Shown: piece by piece, positions 1,109 through 17,371 of the stretch | How positions within the stretch are numbered: position 1 is the first letter of the stretch | How the letters are laid out: every line of letters begins with the position of its first letter | Origin: Prevotella sp. UBA3776 | Lineage (GTDB): Bacteria > Bacteroidota > Bacteroidia > Bacteroidales > Bacteroidaceae | Assembly (NCBI GenBank): GCA_002369515.1 | Contig: DFFM01000014.1 | Location: 5,481-26,131 of the forward strand | Direction: 5' to 3' | Length of the DNA: 20,651 bases | Translations under genes and position numbers: made by a program | The notes under the pieces: generated by a model | What the model was told of the DNA's origin: nothing | Database searches by the model: none | The model's input: the letters and a program-made list of their open reading frames with translations, nothing else

Positions 1109-1990
1109 TCAACCCTTCAGCTCTGCGGGCACGGTGGGCATGGCACCGTTCTGTGTGCATACGAAGGCGCTCACACGGACGGCGGTGAGATGGGCCTGCT
1201 GCACGGGCTTGCCGTTGAGAATACTGGCGCAGAACGAACCGGTGAACGAGTCGCCGGCGCCGACGGTGTCGGCCACCTCCACCTTCGGTGTTTCCTGGAA
1301 CGAGGTGAGACCGTCGTCGGTGAAGACGTAAGAGCCGTTGGTGCCACAGGTGAGCACCAGCATCTTCAGCCCATAGTCAATGACCATGCGCTCGCAGGTG
1401 CCGCGCATGTCGAGACCTTCGTAGCCAAACATGCGGTTGACCACAACCAGTTCCTCATCATTGATTTTCAGAACGTTGCACAGGTGGAACGACTCCTCAA
1501 GCACATCTTTGGAGTAGAACTGCTGGCGCAGGTTGATGTCGAAAATCTTCAGACAGTCGTCGGGTGTGGCATCAAGGAACCGGCGGATGGTGTCGCGGCT
1601 GACGGCATTGCGCTGAGCCAGCGAGCCAAAGCAGACGGCACGGGCGTTGCGGGCCACCTCCTCCATTTCGGCGGTGAAGGGAATGTTGTCCCAAGCCACG
1701 TTCTCCTTGATGTCGTAGGCGGGAATGCCGTCGCCCGAAAGGGTCACCTGCACGGTGCCCGTGGGGAAAGCCACGCGCGGCATCAGATAGTTGAGGTTGT
1801 GATCCTTGAGCGCGTTGATGGTTTCTTCGGCCAGTTCGTCCTCGCCAAGAGCGCTGATGGCCAGTGTGTCAAGCCCGAACTGTCCGGCATGGTAAGCAAA
1901 ATTGGCGGGTGCGCCACCCAGTTTCTTTCCTTCGGGAAGTACATCCCACAGAGCCTCTCCGAGACCCACGATATAACGTTTCTGTTCCAT
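1109..1990 (-). CDS. PfkB-family carbohydrate kinase, probable fructokinase
   Basis: A 293-residue cytoplasmic sugar kinase that most likely phosphorylates the fructose released from fructan. Ribokinase/PfkB features are visible: the N-terminal sugar-binding stretch GGAPANFAYHAGQFG (about 25-39), the DINLR strand (151-155), and the C-terminal signature DTVGAGDSFTGSFC (241-254) with catalytic base D247 in the GAGD anion hole. Length is normal for the family. It is the last gene of the downstream transcription unit, 6 bases after the MFS permease, the same order as BT1758-BT1757 in the Bacteroides levan locus. Fructose specificity is inferred from that context; PfkB kinases vary in substrate. 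Confidence 0.93.
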   Translation of the reverse strand: MEQKRYIVGLGEALWDVLPEGKKLGGAPANFAYHAGQFGLDTLAISALGEDELAEETINALKDHNLNYLMPRVAFPTGTVQVTLSGDGIPAYDIKENVAWDNIPFTAEMEEVARNARAVCFGSLAQRNAVSRDTIRRFLDATPDDCLKIFDINLRQQFYSKDVLEESFHLCNVLKINDEELVVVNRMFGYEGLDMRGTCERMVIDYGLKMLVLTCGTNGSYVFTDDGLTSFQETPKVEVADTVGAGDSFTGSFCASILNGKPVQQAHLTAVRVSAFVCTQNGAMPTVPAELKG

Positions 1991-1996
1991 AGTTGT

Positions 1997-3175
1997 TTAT
2001 GCTGATTTAAGTTGTTTGATATAAGTGAAAAGATAGGCTACGCCGACGGCCATGACAAGCACGGCTCCAATCTGGCCAATGGCGTCGCTGGCAAATCCCA
2101 TGAGCAAGGGGAAGATGGTGCCGCCGAAGAGGCCCATGATCATAAGTCCGCTCACCTCGTTCTGCTTGTCGGGCATGGCCGTGAGTGCCTGTGCGAAGCA
2201 CATGGAGAACACGTTGCTGTTGCCGTAGCCCACCAGGGCAATGCCCAGATAGAGCAGCGTCGTGGTGTTGCCGAAGCACATGAGCACCATGGAGGCTGCC
2301 ATCATCACCACAGAGATGATGAAGAAAGTACGCGTCTTGAGCACACGGAGGAAATAGGAACCCGTCAGACAGCCGATGGTACGGAAGATGAAATAGAGCG
2401 ACGTGGCAAATCCGGCCTGGTCGAGCGTCATGCCCGTGCGCTCAATGAGCAGCTTGGGAGCCGTGGTGTTGGTGCCCACGTCGATGCCCACATGACACAT
2501 GATGCCCAGGAAGGAGAGCAGCACTACGGGTACGCCCAGCAGACGGAAACAGTTGACGAACTGTGTGCCCACGGCGGGCAGTTTCTCGGTCTGCGGCTCC
2601 TCATTCTGGATGGGTGTTGTCCAGAGCAGCAGAGTGGCCGCCACACTGATGACGAAGTAGATGGCAAACAGCACGCGCCAGTCGAGTCCCATCGTGGGAA
2701 TGAGCGCCTTGTATCCCCAGCCGGCAATGAGCGGAGCCATGAACGAGGCGATGGCCTTGACAAACTGTCCGAAGGTGAGCTGCGAGGCCAAGTTTTCGCC
2801 GCCGCTGACCAGTGCCATCAGGGGGTTGAGAGAAGTTTGCATCAGCGTGTTACCAATACCCAACAGCGAGAAGGCTACCAGCATCAGGGGGAAGCTGTTG
2901 CCAAAGACAGGCAGCAGCAGTGCCAATGCGGTGACCACCAACGAGAGCAGCACCGTTTTCTTCTTGCCGATTTTGTTCATCAGCACACTGGTGGGTACGC
3001 TGAAAATGAGGAACCAGAAGAACACCAGTGAAGGCAGCACGTTGGCAACGCTGTCGCTGAGCCCTTGCTCGGCCTTCACATAATTGGAAGCAGTGCCCAC
3101 CAAGTCAACGAACCCCATGCAGAAGAAGCAGAGCATGAGCGAGATGAGCGCGAGTTTCTTGTTTTGACTTGCCAT
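1997..3175 (-). CDS. MFS sugar permease (FucP/GlcP-like), probable fructose importer
   Basis: A 392-residue integral inner-membrane protein with about 12 hydrophobic segments and a short loop of basic residues between helices 2 and 3 (NKIGKKK), typical of MFS carriers. The early segment FFCMGFVDLVGTASNYVK and the internal TSLNPLMALVSG resemble the sugar:proton symporter branch that includes FucP and BT1758. It should bring fructose produced in the periplasm into the cytoplasm. It lies 25 bases after the periplasmic GH32 gene and 6 bases before the kinase, so import and phosphorylation are co-transcribed. Substrate is inferred from context. Confidence 0.9.
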   Translation of the reverse strand: MASQNKKLALISLMLCFFCMGFVDLVGTASNYVKAEQGLSDSVANVLPSLVFFWFLIFSVPTSVLMNKIGKKKTVLLSLVVTALALLLPVFGNSFPLMLVAFSLLGIGNTLMQTSLNPLMALVSGGENLASQLTFGQFVKAIASFMAPLIAGWGYKALIPTMGLDWRVLFAIYFVISVAATLLLWTTPIQNEEPQTEKLPAVGTQFVNCFRLLGVPVVLLSFLGIMCHVGIDVGTNTTAPKLLIERTGMTLDQAGFATSLYFIFRTIGCLTGSYFLRVLKTRTFFIISVVMMAASMVLMCFGNTTTLLYLGIALVGYGNSNVFSMCFAQALTAMPDKQNEVSGLMIMGLFGGTIFPLLMGFASDAIGQIGAVLVMAVGVAYLFTYIKQLKSA

Positions 3176-3200: not shown

Positions 3201-4910
3201 TTATTTTATTGCGTAAATGGTGGCTTTGCCGCCCTTCACCTTGACAGCGGTGTAGGCTTCGGTGGGGAACACCAGGTTGGTCATGGCCATCTTGCCCTCG
3301 GCGTCGAACACCTCGATGGAGCAGCGGTCGATGAAGATGCGCAGCTGCTTCAGCGCACCGTGTGTGGGAGCTGTCGTCACGCAGGGGAAGGCTTCGCTGA
3401 AATTCACCTCGCCGCTCTTCGTGCGGTCCATAGAGAAGGTTTGCTTCTGTGCGTCGTAGTTCATCACCACGCGCTCGCCCTTCTGGTTCTGCAGCGTCAG
3501 CTCCATGGTGCCCTTCACATCGACCACCACTTCGCAGGCATCGCTCAGTTTTTTCAGTTTGCCGCCGCGCAGAGCGTCCATCTCCTTCGAGGGTGTCACA
3601 CCGCAGTAGGTTTCGCCGCCGTCAACAAAGAGGTCGAGGTCGCGGGGAATGCTGTTGGCCGAGCGGAACTGCTTGGTGGGAACCTGGTTGGCGTACTGCC
3701 AGTTGCTCATCCACGCCAAGGCCACATGGCGGCCTTCGGGAGCATTGTCAAACGTAACGGTGGCGTAGTGGTCCTTGCCGTAGTCCATCCATTTGGTCAC
3801 CTCGGGCTTGCTCTCGCAGGTGAACTTGTGGCCGTCGAACTGGCCCACGAAGTATTGGGTGCCCGAACCACCATAGACGAAGCCAGGATTGATGTTGCAC
3901 ACCAGCATCCACTTCTGCTGCCCCGTGCCGCGCACAGGCAGTCGCATCAGGTCGGGGCATTCCCACACACCGCCGTGGCTGCCGTATTCGCGTCCGAACG
4001 AACTCTCCATCGTCCAGTCCTTCAGGTTGGCCGAGCTGTAAATCTGCATTTCCTGACCGGCCGCCAATATCATGATCCACCGGCTGGTCTCCTCGTGCCA
4101 GAAGAGATGCGGGTCGCGGAAGTCGGGCATTTTGGCCGTAATCACGGGGTTGCGCTCATATTTCTTGAACGTACGCCCACCGTCGGTAGAATAGGCCATC
4201 GACTGGGTCTGAGCCTCGCCGGCAGAAGTGTAGAAAGCCACGACGCTCTCGCGTCCGTAGCCCGACGTGTTGTTCTTGTCCACCACGCACGAACCGCTGA
4301 AGATGGCTCCCAGCGCGTCGGGTTCGATGGCCGTAGGCTGCGGCTCCCAGTGAGCCAGGTCTTTCGAAACGGAGTGGCCCCAAGTCATGTTCTCCCACAT
4401 TGAGCCGTAGGGGTTGTACTGATAGAACAGGTGCCAAACGCCGTCCTTGTAGAACATGCCGTTGGGGTCGTTCATCCATCCCCACTGCGGGGTGTGGTGA
4501 TAAACGGGGCGCAGGCGCTCGCGGTTTTGGGTGTCAATCTGGTCGGTATATTTCATTTCGCGCCAGCAGGCAAAGTCCTTCACGCTACCTGCATTGCGGC
4601 GGTCGCCATGGAAAACGATGTCGAGCAACTGCCCGTCCCTGATTTCCAATGGCACAAAATAGTCAACGTTGTCAACAGCCAGCCTTACGTTCGGCTTGAG
4701 CACACTCTGGTTGTTGTTGCAAACTACGCGCACGTTGGCGTTCTCAGCTTTCTCCTCGACGGGCAGGAGCACATACTTGTGCCCGCTCTCCAGACGCACC
4801 ATGGCGTGCTGGTCGCCCAGAACAGAGAGCGCATTTGTTCCCACAGGTGTCTCCTGCGCACTGGCATTCATGGCTATGAGCCCAAATAATGCAATCAAAA
4901 ATTGTTTCAT
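3201..4910 (-). CDS. Periplasmic GH32 fructosidase with N-terminal accessory domain
   Basis: A 569-residue GH32 enzyme. A type I signal peptide (residues 1-18, NASA|QE, no lipobox Cys) indicates periplasmic location. Residues about 20-125 form an extra N-terminal domain like the DUF4980 region found on Bacteroidetes GH32 proteins. The five-bladed catalytic domain starts near 135: WMNDPNG holds nucleophile D148, FRDP holds transition-state stabiliser D266, and WECPD holds acid/base E317. All three catalytic residues are present. A beta-sandwich follows from about 425. The likely job is exo-release of fructose from imported oligosaccharides, by analogy with periplasmic GH32 enzymes of levan/inulin loci. 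It opens the second transcription unit, with its own promoter signal at 4975-4982. Confidence 0.94.
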   Translation of the reverse strand: MKQFLIALFGLIAMNASAQETPVGTNALSVLGDQHAMVRLESGHKYVLLPVEEKAENANVRVVCNNNQSVLKPNVRLAVDNVDYFVPLEIRDGQLLDIVFHGDRRNAGSVKDFACWREMKYTDQIDTQNRERLRPVYHHTPQWGWMNDPNGMFYKDGVWHLFYQYNPYGSMWENMTWGHSVSKDLAHWEPQPTAIEPDALGAIFSGSCVVDKNNTSGYGRESVVAFYTSAGEAQTQSMAYSTDGGRTFKKYERNPVITAKMPDFRDPHLFWHEETSRWIMILAAGQEMQIYSSANLKDWTMESSFGREYGSHGGVWECPDLMRLPVRGTGQQKWMLVCNINPGFVYGGSGTQYFVGQFDGHKFTCESKPEVTKWMDYGKDHYATVTFDNAPEGRHVALAWMSNWQYANQVPTKQFRSANSIPRDLDLFVDGGETYCGVTPSKEMDALRGGKLKKLSDACEVVVDVKGTMELTLQNQKGERVVMNYDAQKQTFSMDRTKSGEVNFSEAFPCVTTAPTHGALKQLRIFIDRCSIEVFDAEGKMAMTNLVFPTEAYTAVKVKGGKATIYAIK

Positions 4911-5673: not shown

Positions 5674-7212
5674 CTATTTCCAAATTCTGTTCAGCACCCT
5701 CACCTGGGCGTCCTGGCCGTTGCCTGTGAGGCTGAGGCGGTCGTAGATGGACTGCGGGAAAACAAGGTTGGTCATGGCCATGGTGCCCTCGGCGGTGAAT
5801 ATTTCCACCGACGACTGGTCAACAAAGATGTCGATGGTGGCTTTGTCGCCCACCACGTTGAGCGGTGCCCGCATGGAGGGGATGGAGAAGATGCCGTTGA
5901 AATTGGTGCGTCCCGTGGCCGAGGTGCGGTGTACGGTCAGCGTTCGGTCGGCTCCGTTGATGTCGATGACAAACTGTTGCTTGCTGTCGTTGCTCAGGGT
6001 GATGGCCGAGTTGCCGTCCAGACCCACGGTGACACGCAGCTGGTAGGCATCCTTCACGTCGAGTTGGCCGTCGGCTTTCTGCCATGTGCCGCCGATGTTG
6101 TCTATTTCTTTCACCACGGTGCTGGCCAGCACGGGGTTGCCCGCCACTTCGGTGAGTTTCAGCTCGCGCGGCAGGGTGAAAGCCGAACGCCAGGGCGAAC
6201 AGGGCACGTCGCCGCTGTACTGCCAGTTGTTCATCCATCCAATCATCACACGGCGGTCGCCCGTGTTGCTCCACGTCACGCCGGCATAGTTGTCCATGCC
6301 GTAGTCGAGCCAAAGCGGATAGTCGAGGTCGTCGGCCTTGAAGGTGGTGCCGTCGAAGTCGCCCACGAAGTACATGGTGCCCGAGCCCAGGATGGGGCCT
6401 CCGGGATTGACGCTGACAATGAGCACCCACTTCTTTGTGCCTTTGTAGTCGAACGACAGCAGGTCGGGACACTCCCACTGTATGCTGGGACGCCCGGGAA
6501 GCTCAACAAAGAAGGTGCTCAGGTGGCGCCAATTCTTCAGGTCGGTGCTGCCGTAGAACTCAATGCCCATTTTCCATCCCTTGGCCAGCGACATGATCCA
6601 CTGGCCCGACTGCTCGTGCCAGAACACCTTGGGGTCGCGCAGATTGTCGTCGTCGTTTTTGATGACGGGGTTGTTTGCAAAGCGTGTGAAGTTCTTGCCG
6701 CCGTCGGTAGAGTAGGCAATGCTCTGCTGCTGCTTCTCGGTGGCCGAGGTGTAGATGGCCACCATGGCGTTGGCTCCGAATCCGGCCGTGTTGTTGCGGT
6801 CGATGACGCACGAGCCGCTGAAAATGTCGCCCAGTTCGTCGCGGGTGAGTGCCACGGCCTGCTCTTCCCAGTGGATGAGGTCGGAAGAGGTGGCGTGTCC
6901 CCACGACATGTTGCCCCACACGTTGCCCTGAGGATTGTATTGATAGAACAGATGATAAACGCCATCGACATAGACCAGCCCGTTGGGGTCGTTCACCCAG
7001 TTCCTGGCCGGGGTGTAGTGAATCTGCGGGCGGTATTGCTCGTCGTATCCACTCGTTTGGGTGGGCTTGTCGGGCGTTTGGGGCTGCTCGGGCTTGGGGT
7101 CGTCAATCTCCGGATTGTAGTCCTGCCCGTGGTCATCGCTGCCTGAGCAAGCCGAAATGGTAGCCGCCAGTGCGGCAGCTACCATAGTCATTGTCAAATA
7201 GGATTTCTTCAT
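5674..7212 (-). CDS. Surface lipoprotein GH32 fructanase (probable endo-levanase/inulinase)
   Basis: A 512-residue GH32 enzyme. The signal peptide ends in a lipobox (TISAC, lipidated C22) followed by SGSDDH, an acidic stretch like the Bacteroidetes surface-export signal, so the protein is probably displayed outside the cell. A Pro/Asp-rich linker covers about 30-58. Catalytic blocks are complete: WVNDPNG (nucleophile D75), LRDP (D193) and WECPD (acid/base E247). A C-terminal beta-sandwich ends in a strand containing DQSSVEIFTAEG. In the Bacteroides levan locus the equivalent surface GH32 (BT1760) is the endo-acting levanase that determines substrate choice; that role is inferred here from localisation and gene order. 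It follows the DUF4960-like gene by 31 bases. Confidence 0.93.
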   Translation of the reverse strand: MKKSYLTMTMVAAALAATISACSGSDDHGQDYNPEIDDPKPEQPQTPDKPTQTSGYDEQYRPQIHYTPARNWVNDPNGLVYVDGVYHLFYQYNPQGNVWGNMSWGHATSSDLIHWEEQAVALTRDELGDIFSGSCVIDRNNTAGFGANAMVAIYTSATEKQQQSIAYSTDGGKNFTRFANNPVIKNDDDNLRDPKVFWHEQSGQWIMSLAKGWKMGIEFYGSTDLKNWRHLSTFFVELPGRPSIQWECPDLLSFDYKGTKKWVLIVSVNPGGPILGSGTMYFVGDFDGTTFKADDLDYPLWLDYGMDNYAGVTWSNTGDRRVMIGWMNNWQYSGDVPCSPWRSAFTLPRELKLTEVAGNPVLASTVVKEIDNIGGTWQKADGQLDVKDAYQLRVTVGLDGNSAITLSNDSKQQFVIDINGADRTLTVHRTSATGRTNFNGIFSIPSMRAPLNVVGDKATIDIFVDQSSVEIFTAEGTMAMTNLVFPQSIYDRLSLTGNGQDAQVRVLNRIWK

Positions 7213-7243: not shown

Positions 7244-8776
7244 TTATCTTGTCTTCAGATACTCGAGTGAGTTCTTGGCCAGACGGAGCACATTGTCCTG
7301 GAAGACATTGTTCTTGGGATGTGCGCTCTTGTCGGGAGTGCCGTCGCTGTTCTTCATCGAGAATTCGCAGCCACCGTTACCGATGCAGAGGATGGTGCCC
7401 TTGAAGTCGGTGTTGCCCTGCTGAGCTTCCCATACGTTCATCTGGCTAACCCAGTCAATCTGGCTGTCCCATGTGCCCAACGGATAGATGCCGTAGGTGG
7501 TGGTGATCTGCGTGTAGCAGGCTTCCTCCTGGTTGCCGATGCCTGTGAGCAGGCTGGGCAGGTTGAAGAACAGACAGTTGTGGTCCTCAGTCCATCCGGC
7601 GCCCTTGAATGCGATGAGCTTGGTGCGGTCGGTGCTCTCAACATCCAGTCCTTTGTAGATGGGGTGTGTAGAGTGGTCCTTCGAGAATCGCGAGCCGGGA
7701 TTCAGCTGGACGGCCATCTTCCAAACATCGTTGTTGATGCCGCCTTGGCCGGTGCCGATGGCGTGGTCGTTGTTCTTCATGTCGTCCAGGTTGAGACGGC
7801 CCAAATGGCCCACATAGACGGTGGCGTGGCTCCAGAGCAGCAGGCTTCCGCCCTCGCGATACCACTCGCGGATGATGGGCGTTGCGGCCGCAACGTTCTC
7901 AGGAATGTTCCATACGGCATCCTCGCCGACGCCCTCGAGGTCGCGCAGCCAGAAGAGTACGCGGAACGGATCGATGTCGTCAGCCGACTTCACATCGTTG
8001 AAGCTGACGAACTGGGCCGTGGGATAGGTTTCGTGCAGCCACAGCCAAGCCGAAGCCTCGTCGTCATCGCCGTTGGCCACCAGTTCTTCGGGGGTGGCAT
8101 AGATGCTGAGGAAGCCGATGGCGGTCTTGCCGATGCGGAGCGAAGACGAGGTGGAGAGCGAGGTGCCCTTGTCGTTCTTGGCCACGAGAGTCACGTTCCA
8201 GGTATCGCCCGTCTCAACATCCTTGATGGTGTAGGAGGTGGCTGTGCCGGGGAGTGTCTCGTTGATGGTCTTCTTGCCGTTGGTGGCGGTGAAGATGATG
8301 CTGGTGGCATCGGCGGCGGCGTTCCACTCAACCAGTGCGTCGTAGCCGCCGGCCTTGTCGAGCTGGCTCATCTGAACACCGTTGATGCTGGTGGCTCCCT
8401 CGCGCGTGTAGGTCTTCACCACACCGGTGGAGATGTTGTTGCCGTCGGTCAGCTTGAACACATACTCGAAAGGCACGTTGGTGGGCACACCACGCTGGGT
8501 GAAGCTGTTGCCGCTGACCACTTCGCTGGCCGAGAGGGTTCCATTGCGATAGATGGTCACCATCATGCTCTGGCCGCTGCCGAGTGCAGGCCAAGTCCAA
8601 GTGTAGTCGTCGCCGGCGAGCGCGCCCGTAATCTGGGTCACATCGGGAGCGCTGAGCACCATGGCTTCGCGGTCGATGTCCTTGTCCTGGCAGGAAGTGA
8701 GGAGCCCCCCACCTACTCCCCCGAGGGAGAGTGCAGCTGCCAAGAACACTACATATTTCATTATATTCTTTTTCAT
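7244..8776 (-). CDS. Surface glycan-binding lipoprotein, DUF4960-like (SusE-position, BT1761-like)
   Basis: A 510-residue lipoprotein. The lipobox is LLTSC (C29), followed by QDKDID, consistent with surface export. Residues about 40-230 look like two Ig/fibronectin-type beta domains (for example the repeat around WTWPALGSGQS and VEWNAAADATS). From about 235 to the end lies a region of the DUF4960 type, rich in aromatic residues (FLSIYATPEEL, WYREGGSLLLWSHATVYVG, CLFFNLPSL) and ending with LRLAKNSLEYLKTR. In levan loci the protein at this position binds fructan on the cell surface next to SusC/SusD. No catalytic motif is seen. The DUF assignment is from memory of the family, not a search. Confidence 0.82.
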   Translation of the reverse strand: MKKNIMKYVVFLAAALSLGGVGGGLLTSCQDKDIDREAMVLSAPDVTQITGALAGDDYTWTWPALGSGQSMMVTIYRNGTLSASEVVSGNSFTQRGVPTNVPFEYVFKLTDGNNISTGVVKTYTREGATSINGVQMSQLDKAGGYDALVEWNAAADATSIIFTATNGKKTINETLPGTATSYTIKDVETGDTWNVTLVAKNDKGTSLSTSSSLRIGKTAIGFLSIYATPEELVANGDDDEASAWLWLHETYPTAQFVSFNDVKSADDIDPFRVLFWLRDLEGVGEDAVWNIPENVAAATPIIREWYREGGSLLLWSHATVYVGHLGRLNLDDMKNNDHAIGTGQGGINNDVWKMAVQLNPGSRFSKDHSTHPIYKGLDVESTDRTKLIAFKGAGWTEDHNCLFFNLPSLLTGIGNQEEACYTQITTTYGIYPLGTWDSQIDWVSQMNVWEAQQGNTDFKGTILCIGNGGCEFSMKNSDGTPDKSAHPKNNVFQDNVLRLAKNSLEYLKTR

Positions 8777-8852: not shown

Positions 8853-10601
8853 TTAGTTGTAGCCCTTGTTTTGGGTGTAGAGTCCGGGAACGTAGTAGAG
8901 CTGGATGTAAGGCAGGGGGAAGTACTCGTTCTTGCCGGGTGTGAAGTGGGCGTCGCGGTAGTACTGTGCATAGGTCTGTCCGTCATAGACAGAGTTCTGC
9001 TCGGTCTCGAAGAACTTGTTCAGGGTCTGCGATGCTATGCCCCAGCGGCGCAGGTCGAAGAAGCGTCCGTTCTCCATGGCCAGTTCCAGACGGCGCTCCC
9101 ACTGCAGGCAGCGGCGGGCACTCTCCTTGGTCTGGAAGTAAGAGGCGGGATAGAGGGCGATATCGCACTGGTTGGCGGCATAGGCAATGTGCTTGCTGAC
9201 CGAGTTCTTGGCGCGCTGACGGATGTCGTTGATGATGCTGCGGGCTTCCTCCAGACCGCCAGTCTCGATGAGTGCCTCGGCGCGCATGAGCATCACGTCA
9301 GTGTAGCGCAGCACGTAGTCGTTCATGGCGAATGCCTGCCAGGGATTGTCGAAGGTTTCGCCCTTTGAGCGCTGCGGCACTTCCTTCAGCGAAGCGTAGT
9401 AGCCGTAGGTGTTGGGCGTACGCGAGTTGTCCTTGGTCATGGTGTAAGCCTCCTCGTACTTGTAGGGGAAGGTAGGCATGCCAACGGTGTGGAAAAGGCG
9501 CGGATCCCACTTCTGAGCGGTGGGTACACCGTTCACGGGGTATTCAATCTTGTCGTTGAAGTGGTCGAACATGGGCAGACCGTCCTGAGTCTTGAAGGCG
9601 TTCACGAGGTTCTGTGTGGGTTTGTGGAAGTCCCAACCGCACGACCAGATGCCCCAACAGCCATTGAGCATGTTGCTCCAATTGCCACGTCCGTAGAGGG
9701 TGTTGTCGTCCTGATAGTCAGAGTGCTGAACGGCGAAGATGCTTTCAGACCCGTTCTTGTACTCGGGCAGGAAGATGTCGCCATAGTCAGCCATGTAGCC
9801 ATACTGCGAGTTCTTCACATCGTTGGTGTACTTGAGCACTTCCTGCATGTACTGCTGGTTGATGTGGCTCACGCCCGTGGTTGCCTCGTAGCCATCGCCC
9901 CATGCCATGGTCAGATAGCACTTGGCCAGATAGGCAGCGGCGGCAATCTTGTTGGCGCGTCCGCCTTCGGCCTGCTGAGCGGGCAGCACGTCGTAGGCAG
10001 CCTTGAAGTCGGCCACGATCTTTTCCATGAGTTCCTGGTGCGAGAAGGTGTTGTTGGGAGTCTGCTCCTCAGTGTGGTTGCGATAGACTTCCTCGTCCAC
10101 CCAGGGCACCTGGTTCCAGATTTGTACCAGCTTGAAGTAGAAGTGGGCGCGGAGGAAGCGCACCTCACCCTCGCGGATGGCGCGTGTTTTTTCATCGAGT
10201 TTGTCGCCGAAGTCGGCCAGCGAAACCAGCGCGCGGTTGCAGCGGCTGACGCTGCAGTAGAGGTGATACCACATTTCGTCCATGTGGTCGGGAGTCGAAG
10301 CGGTCAGCGTTGACCAAACCTCGAAGGGATGATAGTTGGTGTCGGTGGTGCCCGAGCCGCCCTTCATGGCGTCGTCGCTCGTCAGGTCGCCGTAGGGCCA
10401 GAGGTTGAACGGATAGGTGTACCAGTCGTCGCCCAGTTTGGCGTATGCAGCAGTGACCATCTCGTTGGGCTGGCTCATGGCAAGGTCTTCGCTGATGACA
10501 CCCTGCGGCTCGACATCGATGAAATCGTTGCAGGAAGCCAAACCTAAGACTACACCCACTGCGCAGATGGCGCGTATTATTTTGTTGTTCTTGGTAATCA
10601 T
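8853..10601 (-). CDS. SusD-like outer-membrane glycan-binding lipoprotein
   Basis: A 582-residue lipoprotein with lipobox LASC (C24), followed by NDFIDVEPQG, the usual SusD/RagB opening. Tetratricopeptide-like helices follow, including REGEVRFLRAHFYFKLVQIWNQVPW (about 145-167), a hallmark stretch of the family. The C-terminal RagB/SusD region includes DVMLMRAEALIETGGLEEAR and RRLELAMENGRFFDLRRWG. The end carries the common FPLPY motif. It forms the lid on the SusC channel and delivers fructan fragments. It starts 49 bases after the susC stop. Length is normal. Confidence 0.96.
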   Translation of the reverse strand: MITKNNKIIRAICAVGVVLGLASCNDFIDVEPQGVISEDLAMSQPNEMVTAAYAKLGDDWYTYPFNLWPYGDLTSDDAMKGGSGTTDTNYHPFEVWSTLTASTPDHMDEMWYHLYCSVSRCNRALVSLADFGDKLDEKTRAIREGEVRFLRAHFYFKLVQIWNQVPWVDEEVYRNHTEEQTPNNTFSHQELMEKIVADFKAAYDVLPAQQAEGGRANKIAAAAYLAKCYLTMAWGDGYEATTGVSHINQQYMQEVLKYTNDVKNSQYGYMADYGDIFLPEYKNGSESIFAVQHSDYQDDNTLYGRGNWSNMLNGCWGIWSCGWDFHKPTQNLVNAFKTQDGLPMFDHFNDKIEYPVNGVPTAQKWDPRLFHTVGMPTFPYKYEEAYTMTKDNSRTPNTYGYYASLKEVPQRSKGETFDNPWQAFAMNDYVLRYTDVMLMRAEALIETGGLEEARSIINDIRQRAKNSVSKHIAYAANQCDIALYPASYFQTKESARRCLQWERRLELAMENGRFFDLRRWGIASQTLNKFFETEQNSVYDGQTYAQYYRDAHFTPGKNEYFPLPYIQLYYVPGLYTQNKGYN

Positions 10602-10650: not shown

Positions 10651-13600
10651 TTAGAAACCTAACTGAAGGCCGAATGAGAACGAGGTGCTGTTAGGATAAG
10701 CCCAGTTGGGGTTCTCCGGGTCAGAGCACGTCAGGCTGCTGCTCTTCAGGGTGAGCAGGTTGTGGCCGCTGACATAGAAGCGGGCGCTCGTCATATTAAC
10801 ATGCTTGAGCAGGCTCTCGGGCAGGTTGTAGCCAATCTGCACCTGGCGCAACTTGGCGTAAGAGCCATTCTCGACGAAGTAGGTAGAGGCGCGGTTCTCG
10901 TTGCCCACGTTGTTGGTGGTCAGTGCGGGAATGGTCGAGCCGGTGTTGGCCGTTGTCCATGCGTCGAGCATGCGGCTGCCCTTGTTCGAGCCGGCGTCGG
11001 TGATGCTGTAGAAGTCGGTCTGGAACTTCTGGTCGTTATAGACATCCTTGCCGGCAACGCCCTGCCAGAACATCGAGAAGTCGAAGTTCTTGTAGCCCAG
11101 CTCTACGTTCAAGCCCCAAGAGAAGTTGGGAACGGGATTGAAAATCCAGGTCTGGTCCTGCTCGTTGATGACGCCGTTGCCGTCGAGGTCAGCATACTTC
11201 AGACCACCCACGCGGGCGTTCTCCTGACCGCTGGCCAGCACCTCTTCGCGATTCTGGAACAGTCCATCGACCACGTAACCAACAATTGAGCCGTAAGGCT
11301 TCTTGGCCTCCACCAAGTTTTGCTTGGCGGTGTGGACGTAGCTACCGGTGGTAGTTTCGGGCAGGTAAGTCACGCGCTGACGGAAGAAGTCGAGGTTGCC
11401 GTTCACGTTGTAGCGAAGGCCAAACTCGGTGGTGCCGCGGTAGCCCAGGGCAAACTCCATACCCCAGTTGCGGAGGCTGGGCCCGTTGAGCCAAGAAGCT
11501 CCACCTTCACCCATCGAGCCGAGGTAGGCGGGATTGATGAGCATGTCTTTCACGTTCTTGATATAAGCATCGACCGTTCCATAAACGCTGCTGCCGAAGA
11601 GTGTGAAGTCGAGACCGACGTTGTATTGCTCGGTGGTTTCCCACTTCAGGTTATTGTTCTGCGACTGTGTGGCACGGAAGCCAGAGGGGAAGATTCCGCT
11701 GTACTGCAAAGCCAAGTCGTAAGCGGTCGATTCGTTGCGGCCACCGCCGTAGGTTGCGGCGTAGAGTCCGTAGCGGGCATAGTTCGAGATGGCCTGGTTA
11801 CCGGTTTCACCCCACGATGCACGTACTTTCAGGTCGTTGATCCAGTCTTGGTGGAGGTTCTCCGAGAGACGATAACCAAGGGTGAAGGCGGGGAAGGTAC
11901 CGTAGCGGTTGTTCTCACCGAAGCGGCTCGAACCGTCTCGACGGATGGTGAACGAAGCGAGCACCAGGTCCTTCCAGTTGTAGTCAATCTTGCCGAAGAG
12001 CGACACCAGATTGTAACCCTCGCGGATACCGCCGGCGCGCTGGGTGCCGGTAGCGGCATCGGGCCACATGTAGTCATAGTTCTCCAGAGCATACATCTGG
12101 GCGTAGGCCGACGAGCGGTCTTCCACGTCGCGGTGGAGCTCAATACCGGCCAGCAGTGTGAAGGTGTGGTCGGCACCGATGGTGAAGTTGTAGTTGGCCG
12201 TGTTCGACCAGGTCCACTTCACGGAAGTCTTTGTGCCCAAGCTGGCCGACGGGGTCGAGTTGTTCACCACGTCAGAGTGCCAAGTGTAGGTGACTGAGTG
12301 GATGTGCTCCGACCAGTAGTCGAGACCGAAGTTGGAGCGCAACGTCAGACCTTTGACAGGCTGGAAGTTGATGTAGCCATTACCAAAGATACGCCACATC
12401 TTCAGACGGTTGTCGCGGTTGTGATACTGCTCGCGCAGGGGGTTCTGGCGGTCGCTCATACCACCCACGGGGCCAGAGAAGGTAACACCGTCCTCTTCGA
12501 AGACGGGCAGTGTGGGAGCCATCTTCAGAGCGTTCTCCAGCGGAGCGCAGTCCACCTGGTCGCTGTAGGTGATGGTGGCATTCTCGCCGATGGTAACCAT
12601 CTTGTTCACTTTGAAGCTGGTGTTGATACGGCCCGAGAAACTCTCGAAGTCAGTATATTTCAGGATACCGTTGTTCTTCTTGTAGCCGAAGCTGACCAAG
12701 GCCGACGAACGGTCGGTGGCGTTCGAGATGCTCAGGTCATAGTTCTGCGAGAAGCCCGTACGCGAGATTTCGTCCAGCCAGTCGGTGTTGCTGAAGCGCA
12801 TGGTGTGCTTGTCGTTCATGAAACCGTCATAGCGACCGTTCACCACAAATTCGCGCATTTGGCCCGTAGCGGGGTCGTAAGCCCGGATGGGGGTTCCGGC
12901 AGTGGCGTTGAGGGTCAGACCGTAGTTGTTGGCATACTGCTCGGGGTCAAGGCCGTCGTTCATGGCAGCCTGAGCCATTGCTGTGGCATACTCGGCGGTG
13001 TTGGCCAACTTCATCATGGTTTGCTTGTTGTAGAACGAAGCGGTCAGGTTGGCCGAGAAATCGACTTTCACCTTGTCGCCCTTCTTTCCTGAACGGGTGG
13101 TGATGATGATCACACCGTTAGCAGCGCGCGAACCGTAGATAGAGGCCGAAGCGGCGTCCTTCAACACCTGCATCGACTCGATGTCGTTCATGTTCAGAGT
13201 GTTCAGATTGGTGGTTGTAGGCACACCGTCGATGATGAAGAGCGGGTCCTGCGACGAGTTGAACGAACCGCCACCACGGATGCGCACCGTACCGGCGCCC
13301 ACTGGCGAACCGTTGCTCGTGATGGTCATGCCAGGAACTTTACCCTGCAGGGCACGCATGGGGTCGGTGTCCGACGACGACTTCAACTCGTCGGTCTTCA
13401 CTACAGCCACCGAACCGGTAAGGTCGGCCTTGCGCTGCGTCTGGTAACCCGTTACCACCACTTCTGCCAGTTCGGCGGCGTTCTCCTTCAACTGGATTTT
13501 CATCCCAGGGGTGGCAGCCACCTCAACGGCATCATAGCCAATGTAACTGATGACGAGGGTGGCACCCTCAGCAACCTTCATCTTGAAGTTTCCGTCAAAA

Positions 13601-13764
13601 TCGGTCACTGTGCCACTCGACGTTCCTTTCTCCTTCACCGTAGCGCCAATCACGCCTTCGCCGGTCTCATCGACCACGGTGCCAGAAATCTCCGTTTGCG
13701 CGTACATTACAGTACTCGCAAAGATGAGCGCGAAGCTCAGAAGAAGTCTTTTAAGTTTTTTCAT
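10651..13764 (-). CDS. SusC-like TonB-dependent outer-membrane transporter
   Basis: A 1037-residue SusC/RagA-family protein. A signal peptide (1-22, VMYA|Q) is followed by a CarboxypepD_reg-like beta domain (about 25-105), a TonB-box-like stretch ELAEVVVTGYQTQRKADLTG (about 94-113), a plug with VRIRGGGSF and the SusC hallmark DPLFIIDGVP (about 175-184), then a 22-strand-type barrel ending in FSFGLQLGF with terminal Phe. It imports fructo-oligosaccharides together with SusD, powered by TonB/ExbBD encoded elsewhere. It is the first gene of the main unit; a candidate operator and a -7 element lie directly upstream. Confidence 0.97.
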   Translation of the reverse strand: MKKLKRLLLSFALIFASTVMYAQTEISGTVVDETGEGVIGATVKEKGTSSGTVTDFDGNFKMKVAEGATLVISYIGYDAVEVAATPGMKIQLKENAAELAEVVVTGYQTQRKADLTGSVAVVKTDELKSSSDTDPMRALQGKVPGMTITSNGSPVGAGTVRIRGGGSFNSSQDPLFIIDGVPTTTNLNTLNMNDIESMQVLKDAASASIYGSRAANGVIIITTRSGKKGDKVKVDFSANLTASFYNKQTMMKLANTAEYATAMAQAAMNDGLDPEQYANNYGLTLNATAGTPIRAYDPATGQMREFVVNGRYDGFMNDKHTMRFSNTDWLDEISRTGFSQNYDLSISNATDRSSALVSFGYKKNNGILKYTDFESFSGRINTSFKVNKMVTIGENATITYSDQVDCAPLENALKMAPTLPVFEEDGVTFSGPVGGMSDRQNPLREQYHNRDNRLKMWRIFGNGYINFQPVKGLTLRSNFGLDYWSEHIHSVTYTWHSDVVNNSTPSASLGTKTSVKWTWSNTANYNFTIGADHTFTLLAGIELHRDVEDRSSAYAQMYALENYDYMWPDAATGTQRAGGIREGYNLVSLFGKIDYNWKDLVLASFTIRRDGSSRFGENNRYGTFPAFTLGYRLSENLHQDWINDLKVRASWGETGNQAISNYARYGLYAATYGGGRNESTAYDLALQYSGIFPSGFRATQSQNNNLKWETTEQYNVGLDFTLFGSSVYGTVDAYIKNVKDMLINPAYLGSMGEGGASWLNGPSLRNWGMEFALGYRGTTEFGLRYNVNGNLDFFRQRVTYLPETTTGSYVHTAKQNLVEAKKPYGSIVGYVVDGLFQNREEVLASGQENARVGGLKYADLDGNGVINEQDQTWIFNPVPNFSWGLNVELGYKNFDFSMFWQGVAGKDVYNDQKFQTDFYSITDAGSNKGSRMLDAWTTANTGSTIPALTTNNVGNENRASTYFVENGSYAKLRQVQIGYNLPESLLKHVNMTSARFYVSGHNLLTLKSSSLTCSDPENPNWAYPNSTSFSFGLQLGF

Positions 13765-14170: not shown

Positions 14171-15094
14171 CTAGCGGTTCACCTTGAAGGAAATATGCTT
14201 GTCGTAGAGAGAGACATAGAGTTTGCCGTCGCTGCCCAGAGCAAACCAGTCGGGGGCGGTCGCAACCCAGATGTGTTGTTTCCTGACACCCGTAAACCGG
14301 TTCAGAACGTTCACATAGTCGGTGATGCCTGTGCCGCCGTATCCACACACAATGGAATTGTCGATGATCAGGAAGTTGCTCGAGTTGCAGGTGTTGGGAC
14401 GGCTCACCCACAGCGTCTCGTCGGTAGAAGTGTCGATGGCTACAATGTATGCGTTTTGTCCATTGGCAAAGCCGCTAAGGCCAAGAATGCTGAAGTAGAG
14501 GATCCCATCCTTCACTACGGCCCATTCCACCGACTGCCGGTCGATGTCGGCACCGCGGTTTTTGGGCGGGAAGGTCATGGACGATGTGTTATAGACTTTC
14601 TTCACCTCTCTCGTTGGGTCAACAAGCATTATCAGGTGCGGGTCTCGGCCCCGCCGCGAGATGTCCTTCTCCGATTCTCCCCAAGGCAGAAGATCCGTTT
14701 TTGGCGCCCTTCCATAAGTAGCCACAGGATAGTCGCCGTCGTAGAACACGTCGTTCAGCACCCACTCGCCGCTGTATATCTCAGGCACAATGTCGGGTAT
14801 GCGGTAATCGGTGTCGTCCCAACCGAGTGTCGGATGGCCGATGATGTTTCCAAGCTTGAGCTCGGGCAGCGCAAGGGCATTGTAGTCGTCCAGAGGCGCC
14901 GAAAACGACGTCTTTGCAAGTGTGACGGTCTTGCTCTTGCCGACCGGAGCGGCACTGAGCGTCTGTCCGTCGAAGTTTGACACTGCGATGGGAAATATTA
15001 CGGTTTCATGCTCAACACCGTTGAGCGTGTAGTTCTGCGCGTGGGCAAAGACCATTGCCGCCAACAACGCGACTGATAATGCAAATCTTCTCAT
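14171..15094 (-). CDS. Secreted protein of unknown function, propeller-like repeats
   Basis: A 307-residue protein with a type I signal peptide MRRFALSVALLAAMVFAHA|Q and no lipobox, so probably periplasmic. I do not recognise the family. The C-terminal half has repeats resembling PQQ/WD-type propeller blades (AYIVAIDTSTDETLWVSRP about 221-239, VNVLNRFTGVRKQHIW, KLYVSLYDKHISFKV at the end). The ATG at 15094 is chosen because the signal peptide begins there; a TTG at 15118 would add 8 residues. It starts 24 bases after the stop of the hybrid regulator on the same strand and they share a terminator, so they are probably co-transcribed. A role in signal perception or fructan handling is possible but only by proximity. 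Confidence 0.8.
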   Translation of the reverse strand: MRRFALSVALLAAMVFAHAQNYTLNGVEHETVIFPIAVSNFDGQTLSAAPVGKSKTVTLAKTSFSAPLDDYNALALPELKLGNIIGHPTLGWDDTDYRIPDIVPEIYSGEWVLNDVFYDGDYPVATYGRAPKTDLLPWGESEKDISRRGRDPHLIMLVDPTREVKKVYNTSSMTFPPKNRGADIDRQSVEWAVVKDGILYFSILGLSGFANGQNAYIVAIDTSTDETLWVSRPNTCNSSNFLIIDNSIVCGYGGTGITDYVNVLNRFTGVRKQHIWVATAPDWFALGSDGKLYVSLYDKHISFKVNR

Positions 15095-15118
15095 AGCGAT
15101 AAAACTCTTGACTGCCAA

Positions 15119-17371
15119 CTACAATTCCGAGGGGCTTATGCCGTATTCGTCCTTGAAACACTTGGTGAAGTAGCTGGGAGCCGAGAACCCCACCTCGTAG
15201 GCCACTTCCGAAACGTTCTTGCCCGTGGTTTCCAGCAGGCGGCGGCCACGGCTGACGCGCGCTTTGCGCAGCAACTCCACGGGCGACTGCCCTGTCAGGG
15301 CTTTCACCTTGCGATAGAGCTGCACACGGCTCAATCCCAGTTCAGCCCCCACCGTTTCCACACTCAGGTCGCTGTCGGCCATGTTTTGTTCAATGAATTC
15401 GCGGAACTTGCTCAGGAATGCGTCCTCGCGCGGACTGGCCACTTTCAGCGGTGCAGCGTCCTGAGCAACTGCTGCCGAGGGTGTTTCTGTTCCACCGGCG
15501 GGCTGTTCGGCGTTGGCCGTCGCTTCGGGCTCGGTGGTGCTGGTGGCGAAGATGTCCTTCAGCAGCAAACGGCTTTTGAGCAGGTTGCTGATGCGCGCCA
15601 GCAGCAAGTCGGCGGCGAAGGGCTTGGTGATGTAGGCATCGGCTCCACACTCGTAGCCCTCTATCTGGTGTTCGTTCATGGCACGTGCCGTCAACAGGAT
15701 GACGGGAATATGGCTGGTGGCAGTGCCGGCCTTCAGCCGCTGGCAGAACTCCAGGCCGTTCATGACGGGCATCATCACGTCGGACACAATCAGGTCGGGC
15801 ACAATCTCATTGGCCAGGGCCAGTCCCTGTTGGCCGTCGGCGGCCTCGTTCACTTGGTATTTGTCTTGCAGGATGGTGCGCAGATAGGCGCGTATGTCGG
15901 CATTGTCGTCAACAATGAGCACGGTCTTGGCCTCCGTACTGGGCGAAACGGGTTCTTCGGCTCGCTGCATCGTCTGCAAAGCCGAGTCTCCACGCTCCTC
16001 GCCTTGCGTCTGCCGCCCATCCTTCCACCCGCCGTTCACCTGTGCGTCGAGCATCTTGTTGACCAACTGCGTCAGTTGCTGCGTGTTGCGGCGGACAATG
16101 GCCAGCAGCCCCGAAGCCTCTACACCGGCATGCTGCATGTCGGGAGTGTCGGCCAGCTTGGCCAGCGGCCCCTCGATGAGGGTGAGCGGTGTGCGCAGTT
16201 CGTGGCTCACCTGGGTGTAGAAGTCCAGCTGCTCGCGCTGCAACCGGCTGCGCTCTTTGCGAAGTCTCGACTTCTGCCTATAATATAAATAGGTGACGAG
16301 AGCCACCAGCAACAGCAGTCCTATCACACCCACCGCCAGCAGATTGAGCCAGCGCTGCCGCGTCAGCTCGTCGCCGAAGTCGTTGGCCTTGGCGTGCAGT
16401 TGGTCCAGATAGGCCGTCTGCCTCACCATTTCTTCGCTCTGCATGAGCAGCTCGTCTGCATTGTCTCTCGTGACGAGAGCCGACATCAGGTTGTTTTCCT
16501 TCTTGAAGGGCTTGCCTTCCAGAATGTCAACGGCCAGTTGCAGCAGTTCGTCGCCATGAGTGGGATAGATGTAAGTGGCGTCGAGCAGCGAATCGCGCAC
16601 CAAGCGGATGCCTCCGTTTTCGCCAGGCAGACCGTCGATGCCAAACAACAGCGGCGTCTTGACTCCAGCCGCGGCAAAAGCCTTGCGAGCGCCCATGGCC
16701 ATGCGGTCGTTCTGTCCGAACACCAGGTCAATGGGCTGTTGCCCGCCGTCCTGAATGCGCAGGAAGGACTCAATGGCCTTGTAGGCACTTTCTTCGGTCC
16801 AGTCGCCCTGCAGCGTCGTGACAATCTGCATGCCAGGATAATGCTTCAGCGCAGCCACGAAACCGTTGTGCCGCTCGATGGCGGGCGACGAGCCCTTCAG
16901 CCCCATCACCTCCACCACACGTCCTTTTCCGCCCAGCTTATGGGCGGCATACTCGCCCATGAGCCGCCCCATCTCGTAGTTGTCGGCTCCCATGTGGGCG
17001 GTGTATTTCTTCGAATTGGTTTTCCTTTCAAACACGATGACGGGGATGCCGCGGTCATACACGCGGTCGATGGCCGGCGTGATGGTGCGCACTTGGTTGG
17101 GGGCCACAATCAGCAGGTCGATGCCTTCGTTGGCCAGACTATCAATCTGCTGCACCTGCCGCTCGTCGCTGTCGTAGGCAGCCGCAAAGCAGAGTTCCAC
17201 ATCGTCATTCAGATAGGCACCCATGCGCAGTTCAGCGTTCTGCTTGTCGCGCCAAATGTCCTCCGAGCATTGCGAAATGCCGATGCGATATTTCTTTGGT
17301 TTTGCCGTGCAGGATGCAAGTAAAGCCATCGCAAATGCAGCTAATATGATAGAGTAGAGTACGTTTTTCAT
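15119..17371 (-). CDS. Hybrid two-component regulator with sugar-binding sensor, lacking a HATPase domain
   Basis: A 750-residue inner-membrane sensor/regulator. The N-terminus has a lipobox-like LASC (C21). Residues about 28-320 form a type I periplasmic sugar-binding domain (ribose-binding type: DLLIVAPNQV, IPVIVFERK, VFGQNDRMAMGARKA, LLFGIDGLPG), as in the fructose sensor BT1754. A membrane helix spans about 343-363 and a coiled linker follows. HisKA is present with SHELRTP and phospho-accepting H390. After LVNKMLD (437-442) only about 40 residues precede the receiver, so no ATP-binding N, G1 or G2 boxes exist. The receiver (about 483-600) is intact: D488/D489, D531, T561, K583. An AraC-type DNA-binding domain ends the protein (650-750). 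It probably controls the fructan locus; the missing kinase domain is the main oddity, and BT1754 itself is longer. Confidence 0.93.
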   Translation of the reverse strand: MKNVLYSIILAAFAMALLASCTAKPKKYRIGISQCSEDIWRDKQNAELRMGAYLNDDVELCFAAAYDSDERQVQQIDSLANEGIDLLIVAPNQVRTITPAIDRVYDRGIPVIVFERKTNSKKYTAHMGADNYEMGRLMGEYAAHKLGGKGRVVEVMGLKGSSPAIERHNGFVAALKHYPGMQIVTTLQGDWTEESAYKAIESFLRIQDGGQQPIDLVFGQNDRMAMGARKAFAAAGVKTPLLFGIDGLPGENGGIRLVRDSLLDATYIYPTHGDELLQLAVDILEGKPFKKENNLMSALVTRDNADELLMQSEEMVRQTAYLDQLHAKANDFGDELTRQRWLNLLAVGVIGLLLLVALVTYLYYRQKSRLRKERSRLQREQLDFYTQVSHELRTPLTLIEGPLAKLADTPDMQHAGVEASGLLAIVRRNTQQLTQLVNKMLDAQVNGGWKDGRQTQGEERGDSALQTMQRAEEPVSPSTEAKTVLIVDDNADIRAYLRTILQDKYQVNEAADGQQGLALANEIVPDLIVSDVMMPVMNGLEFCQRLKAGTATSHIPVILLTARAMNEHQIEGYECGADAYITKPFAADLLLARISNLLKSRLLLKDIFATSTTEPEATANAEQPAGGTETPSAAVAQDAAPLKVASPREDAFLSKFREFIEQNMADSDLSVETVGAELGLSRVQLYRKVKALTGQSPVELLRKARVSRGRRLLETTGKNVSEVAYEVGFSAPSYFTKCFKDEYGISPSEL

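Follow-up and report, generated by a model that had tools for sequence, protein, structure and literature searches.

The closest described counterpart of the regulator analysed here is BT1754, the fructose-sensing hybrid two-component system (HTCS) of Bacteroides. HTCSs of the BT1754 type resemble our protein in sensor family, membrane helix, HisKA domain, receiver and AraC output, and in the neighbour genes of full-length relatives, whereas our protein has no HATPase_c domain and a HisKA-receiver gap of about 40 residues as against a median of 209. ChpT and Spo0B are DHp-type phosphotransferases that keep a degenerate ATPase-like domain, and we know of no DHp-type phosphotransferase with a fused sugar sensor and AraC output. 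These two and PhyT share with our protein a phosphorylatable histidine without kinase activity of their own (for PhyT, PMC5898713). DHp fragments of EnvZ and NtrB, phosphatases that work with no ATPase domain, and the kinase-dead CrdS variant E372Q are also alike in having HisKA, its histidine and a Thr or Asn at H+4, four residues after the histidine. They are fragments or mutants that act on separate regulators, whereas our protein is natural, membrane-bound and fused to its receiver and AraC domain. One-component membrane regulators resemble the sister proteins described below, which are sensor, membrane helix and AraC domain only; our protein differs from them in retaining both HisKA and an intact receiver. 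A comparative study states that every HTCS that it identified in B. thetaiotaomicron has a histidine kinase domain (PMC3878776). Our literature search, which covered open-licence PMC articles, found no title or beginning of an abstract that describes an ATPase-less HTCS.

A hybrid regulator without HATPase_c upstream of a fructan locus

The window, meaning the whole stretch of 20,651 nucleotides of Prevotella sp. UBA3776 that was analysed, encodes a hybrid regulator and, downstream of it, a fructan locus that by Pfam comprises two GH32 genes and genes for SusC, SusD, MFS and PfkB proteins (Table 1). An earlier sequence-only reading had placed this open reading frame at the same position and on the same strand. 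It had described a sensor, HisKA with H390, a receiver with D531 and K583 and an AraC output, with which Pfam and the residues agree, and a single membrane helix; the stretch placed by eye lies inside a helix predicted by AlphaFold2. Its main claim was that the gap of about 40 residues between HisKA and receiver is too short for a HATPase_c domain. The two matches are separated by 41 residues, and the Pfam check that it had proposed detected HisKA and Response_reg and no HATPase_c in the protein (E 1e-3). A periplasmic sugar sensor with a membrane helix, HisKA with H390, a receiver with its Asp and Lys, an AraC output and a polysaccharide-locus setting are all present as in other HTCSs. Pfam, the length of the gap and the AlphaFold2 model all show HATPase_c to be missing. 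The same three lines of evidence rule out an ATPase domain hidden in the linker. The receiver has D488, D489, D531, T561 and K583, and the Thr or Asn expected at H+4 of a HisKA-type receiver phosphatase is present as T394.

The AlphaFold2 model, built from 54 sequences, has a mean pLDDT of 81.5 and a pTM of 0.47. A single helix (residues 305-407) is predicted to leave the sensor, cross the membrane and continue as HisKA helix 1, followed by a second helix (417-445). Residues 446-478 have pLDDT < 50 and are predicted to be disordered, and the model has no folded domain in the stretch from the HisKA helices to the receiver. The solved chain closest to the sensor is 2x7x, deposited as ‘sensor protein’ and presumably BT1754 itself; the other closest solved chain, 12aw, is the receiver and AraC part of a hybrid system.

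Ahead of the sensor, residues 1-21 (17309-17371) contain a lipobox-like LASC, and all 54 rows of the alignment share its Cys21. Such a pattern is found before the sensor in most frames of each form (256 of 274 ATPase-less, 141 of 146 full, 19 of 22 short), so that the N-terminal end of the sensor may carry a lipid anchor as well. Between the regulator and SusC genes, a 315-residue protein (14171-15118, minus strand) has a signal-like N-terminus by eye and no Pfam match. At the other end of the window, overlapping plus-strand genes (30-656 and 613-999) match nucleotidyltransferase (PF18765/PF01909) and HepT-like (PF01934) families, a putative toxin-antitoxin pair of the MNT-HEPN type by Pfam.

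Table 1. Positions of the regulator, its parts and the fructan locus genes in the window
Feature	Position	Strand	Basis or remark
PfkB-family sugar kinase (fructokinase-like)	1109..1990	-	Pfam
MFS transporter	1997..3175	-	Pfam
Second GH32 enzyme, with DUF4980	3201..4910	-	Pfam
GH32 enzyme (fructan hydrolase family)	5674..7212	-	Pfam
DUF4960 protein of fructan locus	7244..8776	-	Pfam
SusD-type binding protein	8853..10601	-	Pfam
SusC-type TonB-dependent transporter of fructan locus	10651..13764	-	Pfam
ATPase-less hybrid regulator, 750 aa: sugar-binding sensor, membrane helix, HisKA, linker, receiver, AraC	15119..17371	-	
Peripla_BP_4 sugar-binding sensor, residues 53-287	16511..17215	-	Pfam
Membrane helix, about residues 344-365	16277..16342	-	By eye; inside predicted continuous helix 305-407
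HisKA (DHp) domain, residues 382-442	16046..16228	-	Pfam
Phospho-acceptor His390	16202..16204	-	His in all rows compared
Glu391 (H+1, kinase-only position)	16199..16201	-	Gln, Lys or Asn in many ATPase-less relatives
Thr394 (H+4, phosphatase position)	16190..16192	-	Thr in all ATPase-less rows compared
Linker where HATPase_c is missing, residues 446-482	15926..16036	-	Pfam, length, AlphaFold2
Receiver domain (Response_reg), residues 484-594	15590..15922	-	Pfam
Receiver Asp531	15779..15781	-	
Receiver Lys583	15623..15625	-	
AraC-type DNA-binding domain (HTH_18), residues 676-749	15125..15346	-	Pfam

The ATPase-less architecture is conserved in a family

We used precomputed Pfam annotations to look for HATPase_c (PF02518) in homologues of two queries. 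The domain occurs in none of the best 120 of 7262 homologues of the window protein (the protein itself included; identity down to 63%). Nor does it occur in any of the best 120 of 3622 homologues of a diverged member, 41% identical to the window protein, from the one-contig genome G024. Custom profiles concur, with no HATPase_c in these 240 listed rows or in P0121 and P0122. The control was P0123, a full-length relative that shares the sensor; it and its best 120 homologues all have the domain. The length of the HisKA-receiver gap in the fetched loci is bimodal, being 33-63 residues without the ATPase domain (35 PBP-type and 27 other frames) and 185-263 residues with it (27 PBP-type and 80 other frames), with nothing between; these loci overlap, so the counts include duplicates. 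The short gap reaches 90 residues in the P proteins.

The source assembly is a partial draft genome (66.7% complete), and the sequence-only reading had raised the doubt that an assembly or strain-level deletion removed the domain, to be recognized by close orthologues that have it. We reject such a deletion as vanishingly improbable. None of the 240 matches listed for the two queries has HATPase_c, and G024, assembled as one contig, has the same ATPase-less architecture. The window protein is a genuine, conserved ATPase-less derivative of the BT1754-type fructose-sensing hybrid regulator.

The locus setting of the relatives was compared in the stretches examined, many of them short, and GH32 genes lie beside only a minority of each regulator form. 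Full-length regulators of Bacteroides faecis and B. acidifaciens (L070, L071) adjoin PfkB, MFS, GH32 and SusD genes. One ATPase-less relative (L059) adjoins PfkB, MFS and SusC genes, and another (L068) adjoins SusC and SusD genes whose products are 82% and 85% identical to those of the window.

The ATPase domain was probably lost more than once

Hybrid regulators of the same genus with a propeller/Y_Y_Y sensor are also without HATPase_c. In the first 17 matches these propeller frames are 1129-1369 residues long, and the first seven (L155-L161) were chosen because the match to them ran gapless. Pfam confirms the absence of the domain in two propeller-type proteins (P0364, P0365) and in a single further protein, L082. 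The ATPase-less propeller-sensor regulators (L155-L161, L175-L191, L194, L200) mostly have Lys after the phospho-histidine (SHKLRTP).

We built a tree of the C-terminal part (HisKA, receiver and AraC) from 157 representatives, comprising 96 ATPase-bearing and 61 ATPase-less proteins, the latter 41 PBP-type and 20 other. On this tree the presence of the ATPase domain changes three times, in the PBP lineage, in the propeller lineage and in L082, and the PBP-type ATPase-less rows form one side of a branch with support 61. We read the changes as probable losses, although the tree alone would fit gain equally well; the propeller-sensor family would then have lost HATPase_c independently of the PBP-type family. 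The sensor-only tree conflicts with this simpler picture. Its three architectural forms are intermingled, with 15 architecture changes, and a single clade is rejected for both reduced forms (p-AU 1.3e-4 for the ATPase-less one), which implies repeated loss or module swapping.

The third form consists of 22 sensor-membrane-AraC frames of 508-598 residues without HisKA, ATPase or receiver (L023-L032, L034, L061-L065, L079, L092, L149, L150, L152, L153). These appear to be natural one-component derivatives of the same regulator, and several seem to belong to fructan loci. In the stretches examined, a SusC-like gene adjoins 21 of the 22 and a clear GH32 gene adjoins three; L063 and L065 adjoin PfkB, MFS, GH32, SusC and SusD genes. 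A further hybrid-type frame in the closed genome G024 (L231, C1 near 1611751-1612062) has a weak ATPase match, AraC and no receiver called. Its HisKA-like stretch reads SSELKIP, with no His at that site by eye, and it is probably another reduced variant.

Residues that change and residues that are kept

Residue states were counted on the 157 tree representatives. Sequences were merged only if both architecture and H+1 residue agreed, so that rare H+1 states are over-represented on both sides, and the ATPase-bearing P rows come from a single clade and are nearly identical to each other. The H+1 residue is acidic in 96/96 ATPase-bearing representatives (82 E, 14 D) and in 22/61 ATPase-less ones, the other 39 having Q, K or N. 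PBP-type ATPase-less proteins have 20 Q, 20 E and 1 D, and the other 20 have 15 K, 2 Q, 2 N and 1 E (L082); Lys is found in 15 of the 19 propeller-type representatives. For the clade of the window protein, the 120 rows listed have 114 E, 5 Q and 1 D. Clade B has Gln in 121/121 rows (117 by pattern; in the four rows that the pattern missed, the sequence shows Q). Position 442 is acidic in 93/96 ATPase-bearing rows and more variable in those without HATPase_c.

The C-terminal tree requires six changes between acid and non-acid at H+1, necessarily all in ATPase-less rows. Pure ATPase-less clades make up 13.9 of the total tree length of 59.9, and 0.23^6 gives about 2e-4, which is our own rough arithmetic; with only three independent pairs there are too few for a sign test.

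The phospho-acceptor His, the H+4 Thr and the receiver Asp and Lys are kept in 61/61 ATPase-less representatives, while the median column changes five times in the 41 PBP-type rows. The first acidic residue of the receiver is E in 1/41 PBP-type and 19/20 other ATPase-less representatives, the second is E in 1/41 PBP-type, and the T561 position is S in 1/41 and 19/20, respectively. The S/C-H pair of the receiver-AraC contact is kept in 40/41 PBP-type and 19/20 other ATPase-less representatives; in ATPase-bearing ones it is found in 20/23 PBP-type and 56/73 other (nine of the latter were missed by the pattern). Loss of the H+1 acid together with retention of His, Thr, Asp and Lys fits release from ATP-driven phosphorylation under continued selection for phosphate chemistry.

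The sequence-only reading had set out three signalling options, namely phosphorylation-independent action, a partner kinase or small phosphodonors. These were the right ones, and the conservation pattern across relatives allows them to be ranked. For the first, the sugar would turn the long helix and mechanically rearrange the HisKA-receiver-AraC dimer, with His and Asp passive. The 22 sensor-membrane-AraC frames do without HisKA and receiver, and phosphorylation-independent action has been suggested for some hybrid systems (PMC11253607). Passive sites should drift, however, and the four phosphate-chemistry residues are invariant, which argues against a purely phosphorylation-independent design; we judge such a switch quite improbable.

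A sugar-gated receiver phosphatase as the preferred reading

We lean, with confidence just short of even, to the reading that HisKA, gated by sugar, dephosphorylates the receiver tethered to it, the phosphate being supplied from outside. That the ATPase-less design is common to many relatives suggests that the sensor removes phosphate rather than adding it. The sugar sensor would drive one continuous helix through the membrane into the HisKA dimer; as the chain no longer includes a catalytic domain, this dimer could not use ATP to load itself. Asp531 would be phosphorylated from outside, by acetyl phosphate or by other hybrid systems that pass on their phosphate. In the absence of sugar, HisKA, through Thr394 with His390, would strip this phosphate, and the AraC domain would be held against the receiver. 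Sugar would take HisKA away from its phosphatase state; the receiver would then keep its phosphate, and the fructan locus would be turned on. The phosphatase activity, the phosphate source and the sign of the sugar effect are what we infer here.

The published background comes from other proteins. In the HisKA proteins tested, the acid was reported to be needed only for kinase activity and the Thr or Asn only for phosphatase activity, and CrdS E372Q to have no kinase activity and full phosphatase competence (PMC3510030); the natural Gln at H+1 in clade B is the same as this laboratory substitution. The H+1 acid is described as the general base of the kinase reaction, with the His acting in the phosphatase reaction too, and HK853 without its ATPase domain was reported to be phosphatase-active at pH 8.0 and inactive at pH 5.0 (PMC7005713). 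DHp-only phosphatases are reported to be weaker once the ATPase domain is removed (PMC3510030, PMC7005713), a point against the phosphatase reading. HTCS receivers reportedly accept phosphoramidate, and in most of them a contact between receiver and AraC that involves an S/CHIP motif keeps the protein off until phosphorylation (PMC11253607). In the organism's own genome, contig C32 carries the genes for acetate kinase and phosphotransacetylase near each other.

Three further observations count against the phosphatase reading or parts of it. The window protein and 114 of 120 rows of its clade keep E391, so that the kinase-dead signature is not found in the window protein. The HK-receiver specificity of HTCSs is reported to be relaxed, with insulation by tethering (PMC11253607), which speaks against phosphate from other hybrids. 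The sister regulators, which have neither HisKA nor receiver, point to a sensor that can act on AraC with no phosphate chemistry involved.

Could another protein load His390?

Phosphate may instead reach Asp531 by way of His390, loaded by a separate protein's ATPase domain or, in an HPt-like manner, from another receiver. We regard this as unlikely, although several observations favour it. His390 is present in every row, and one study reports that the phospho-acceptor His cannot be bypassed for phosphotransfer (PMC12632262). E391 is retained in most of the window's clade, the membrane protein PhyT is reported to move phosphate between receivers via a His (PMC5898713), and the organism's own genome has six ATPase-bearing hybrid regulators. 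Against a trans kinase reaction stands the loss of the H+1 acid, required for kinase activity, in 39/61 ATPase-less and 0/96 ATPase-bearing representatives, including Gln throughout clade B and Lys in most propeller-type representatives. This argument applies to those lineages; it does not reach the window protein, which keeps E391, and it leaves the HPt form untouched.

The sequence-only reading had proposed a search for orphan HATPase proteins. The organism's own genome (66.7% complete) has 15 ATPase matches, eight of which have HisKA in the same frame by profile (six hybrids, two kinases). Another, L046, has no Pfam HisKA and reads AHQLGTP by eye, and L048-L052 were set aside, by size only, as weak or gyrase/Hsp90-like. 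G024 has 27 matches, 18 with HisKA, one (L231) with a weak HisKA and two (L225, L226) with an H-box by eye; five (L223, L227-L230) were set aside by size or weak score only. The search did yield a candidate donor, a DUF5112-HATPase_c-DUF5113 protein found in both genomes (L047 on contig C16, L224), with no Pfam HisKA and with N, G1 and G2 boxes visible. Its putative phospho-histidine site is, by eye, His in the organism's own and G016 copies and Asn in the G024 copy. The DUF5112 family occurs in 32 of the 36 genus genomes searched, the other four having a completeness of 50-79%. It passes its cut-off in 0/24 other genomes of the order; the control Bacteroides ihuae has it. This genus-wide distribution makes it a candidate donor rather than a dedicated partner, and it is the main remaining candidate for an ATPase partner.

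Four genomes with an ATPase-less regulator contain neighbouring pairs of short ATPase frames (eight in total: L233, L235, L236, L238). HisKA is absent by profile in six of these frames and very weak in two, and in the two frames run against Pfam the HisKA match is weak. By the same count, four of the eight read AHEVQNP or AHEIQNP by eye; of the other four, some are cut by the edge of the stretch.

Implications for sugar sensing in Prevotella-type bacteria

Taking the phosphatase reading further, Prevotella-type bacteria may more than once have made sugar-sensing hybrid kinases into phosphatase-only receptors. These would gate phosphate from acetyl phosphate or cross-talk by sugar and would be way-stations to one-component sensor-membrane-AraC regulators. 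We regard this broader proposal as possible but somewhat doubtful. If true, it would mean that a two-component system decays to a one-component one, opposite to the textbook direction. A kinase-less form that is conserved, recurs and retains its phospho-histidine and receiver would show that polysaccharide loci can be placed under sugar control through phosphatase gating or through kinase activity borrowed from elsewhere. Such a form would also supply naturally occurring proteins with which the kinase and phosphatase functions could be studied apart. The inulin locus of Segatella copri DSM18205 is reported to have no contiguous HTCS gene, and an upstream homologue has, according to the authors, an unclear role (PMC11784079). 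The ATPase-less form may bear on such loci without a full hybrid regulator.
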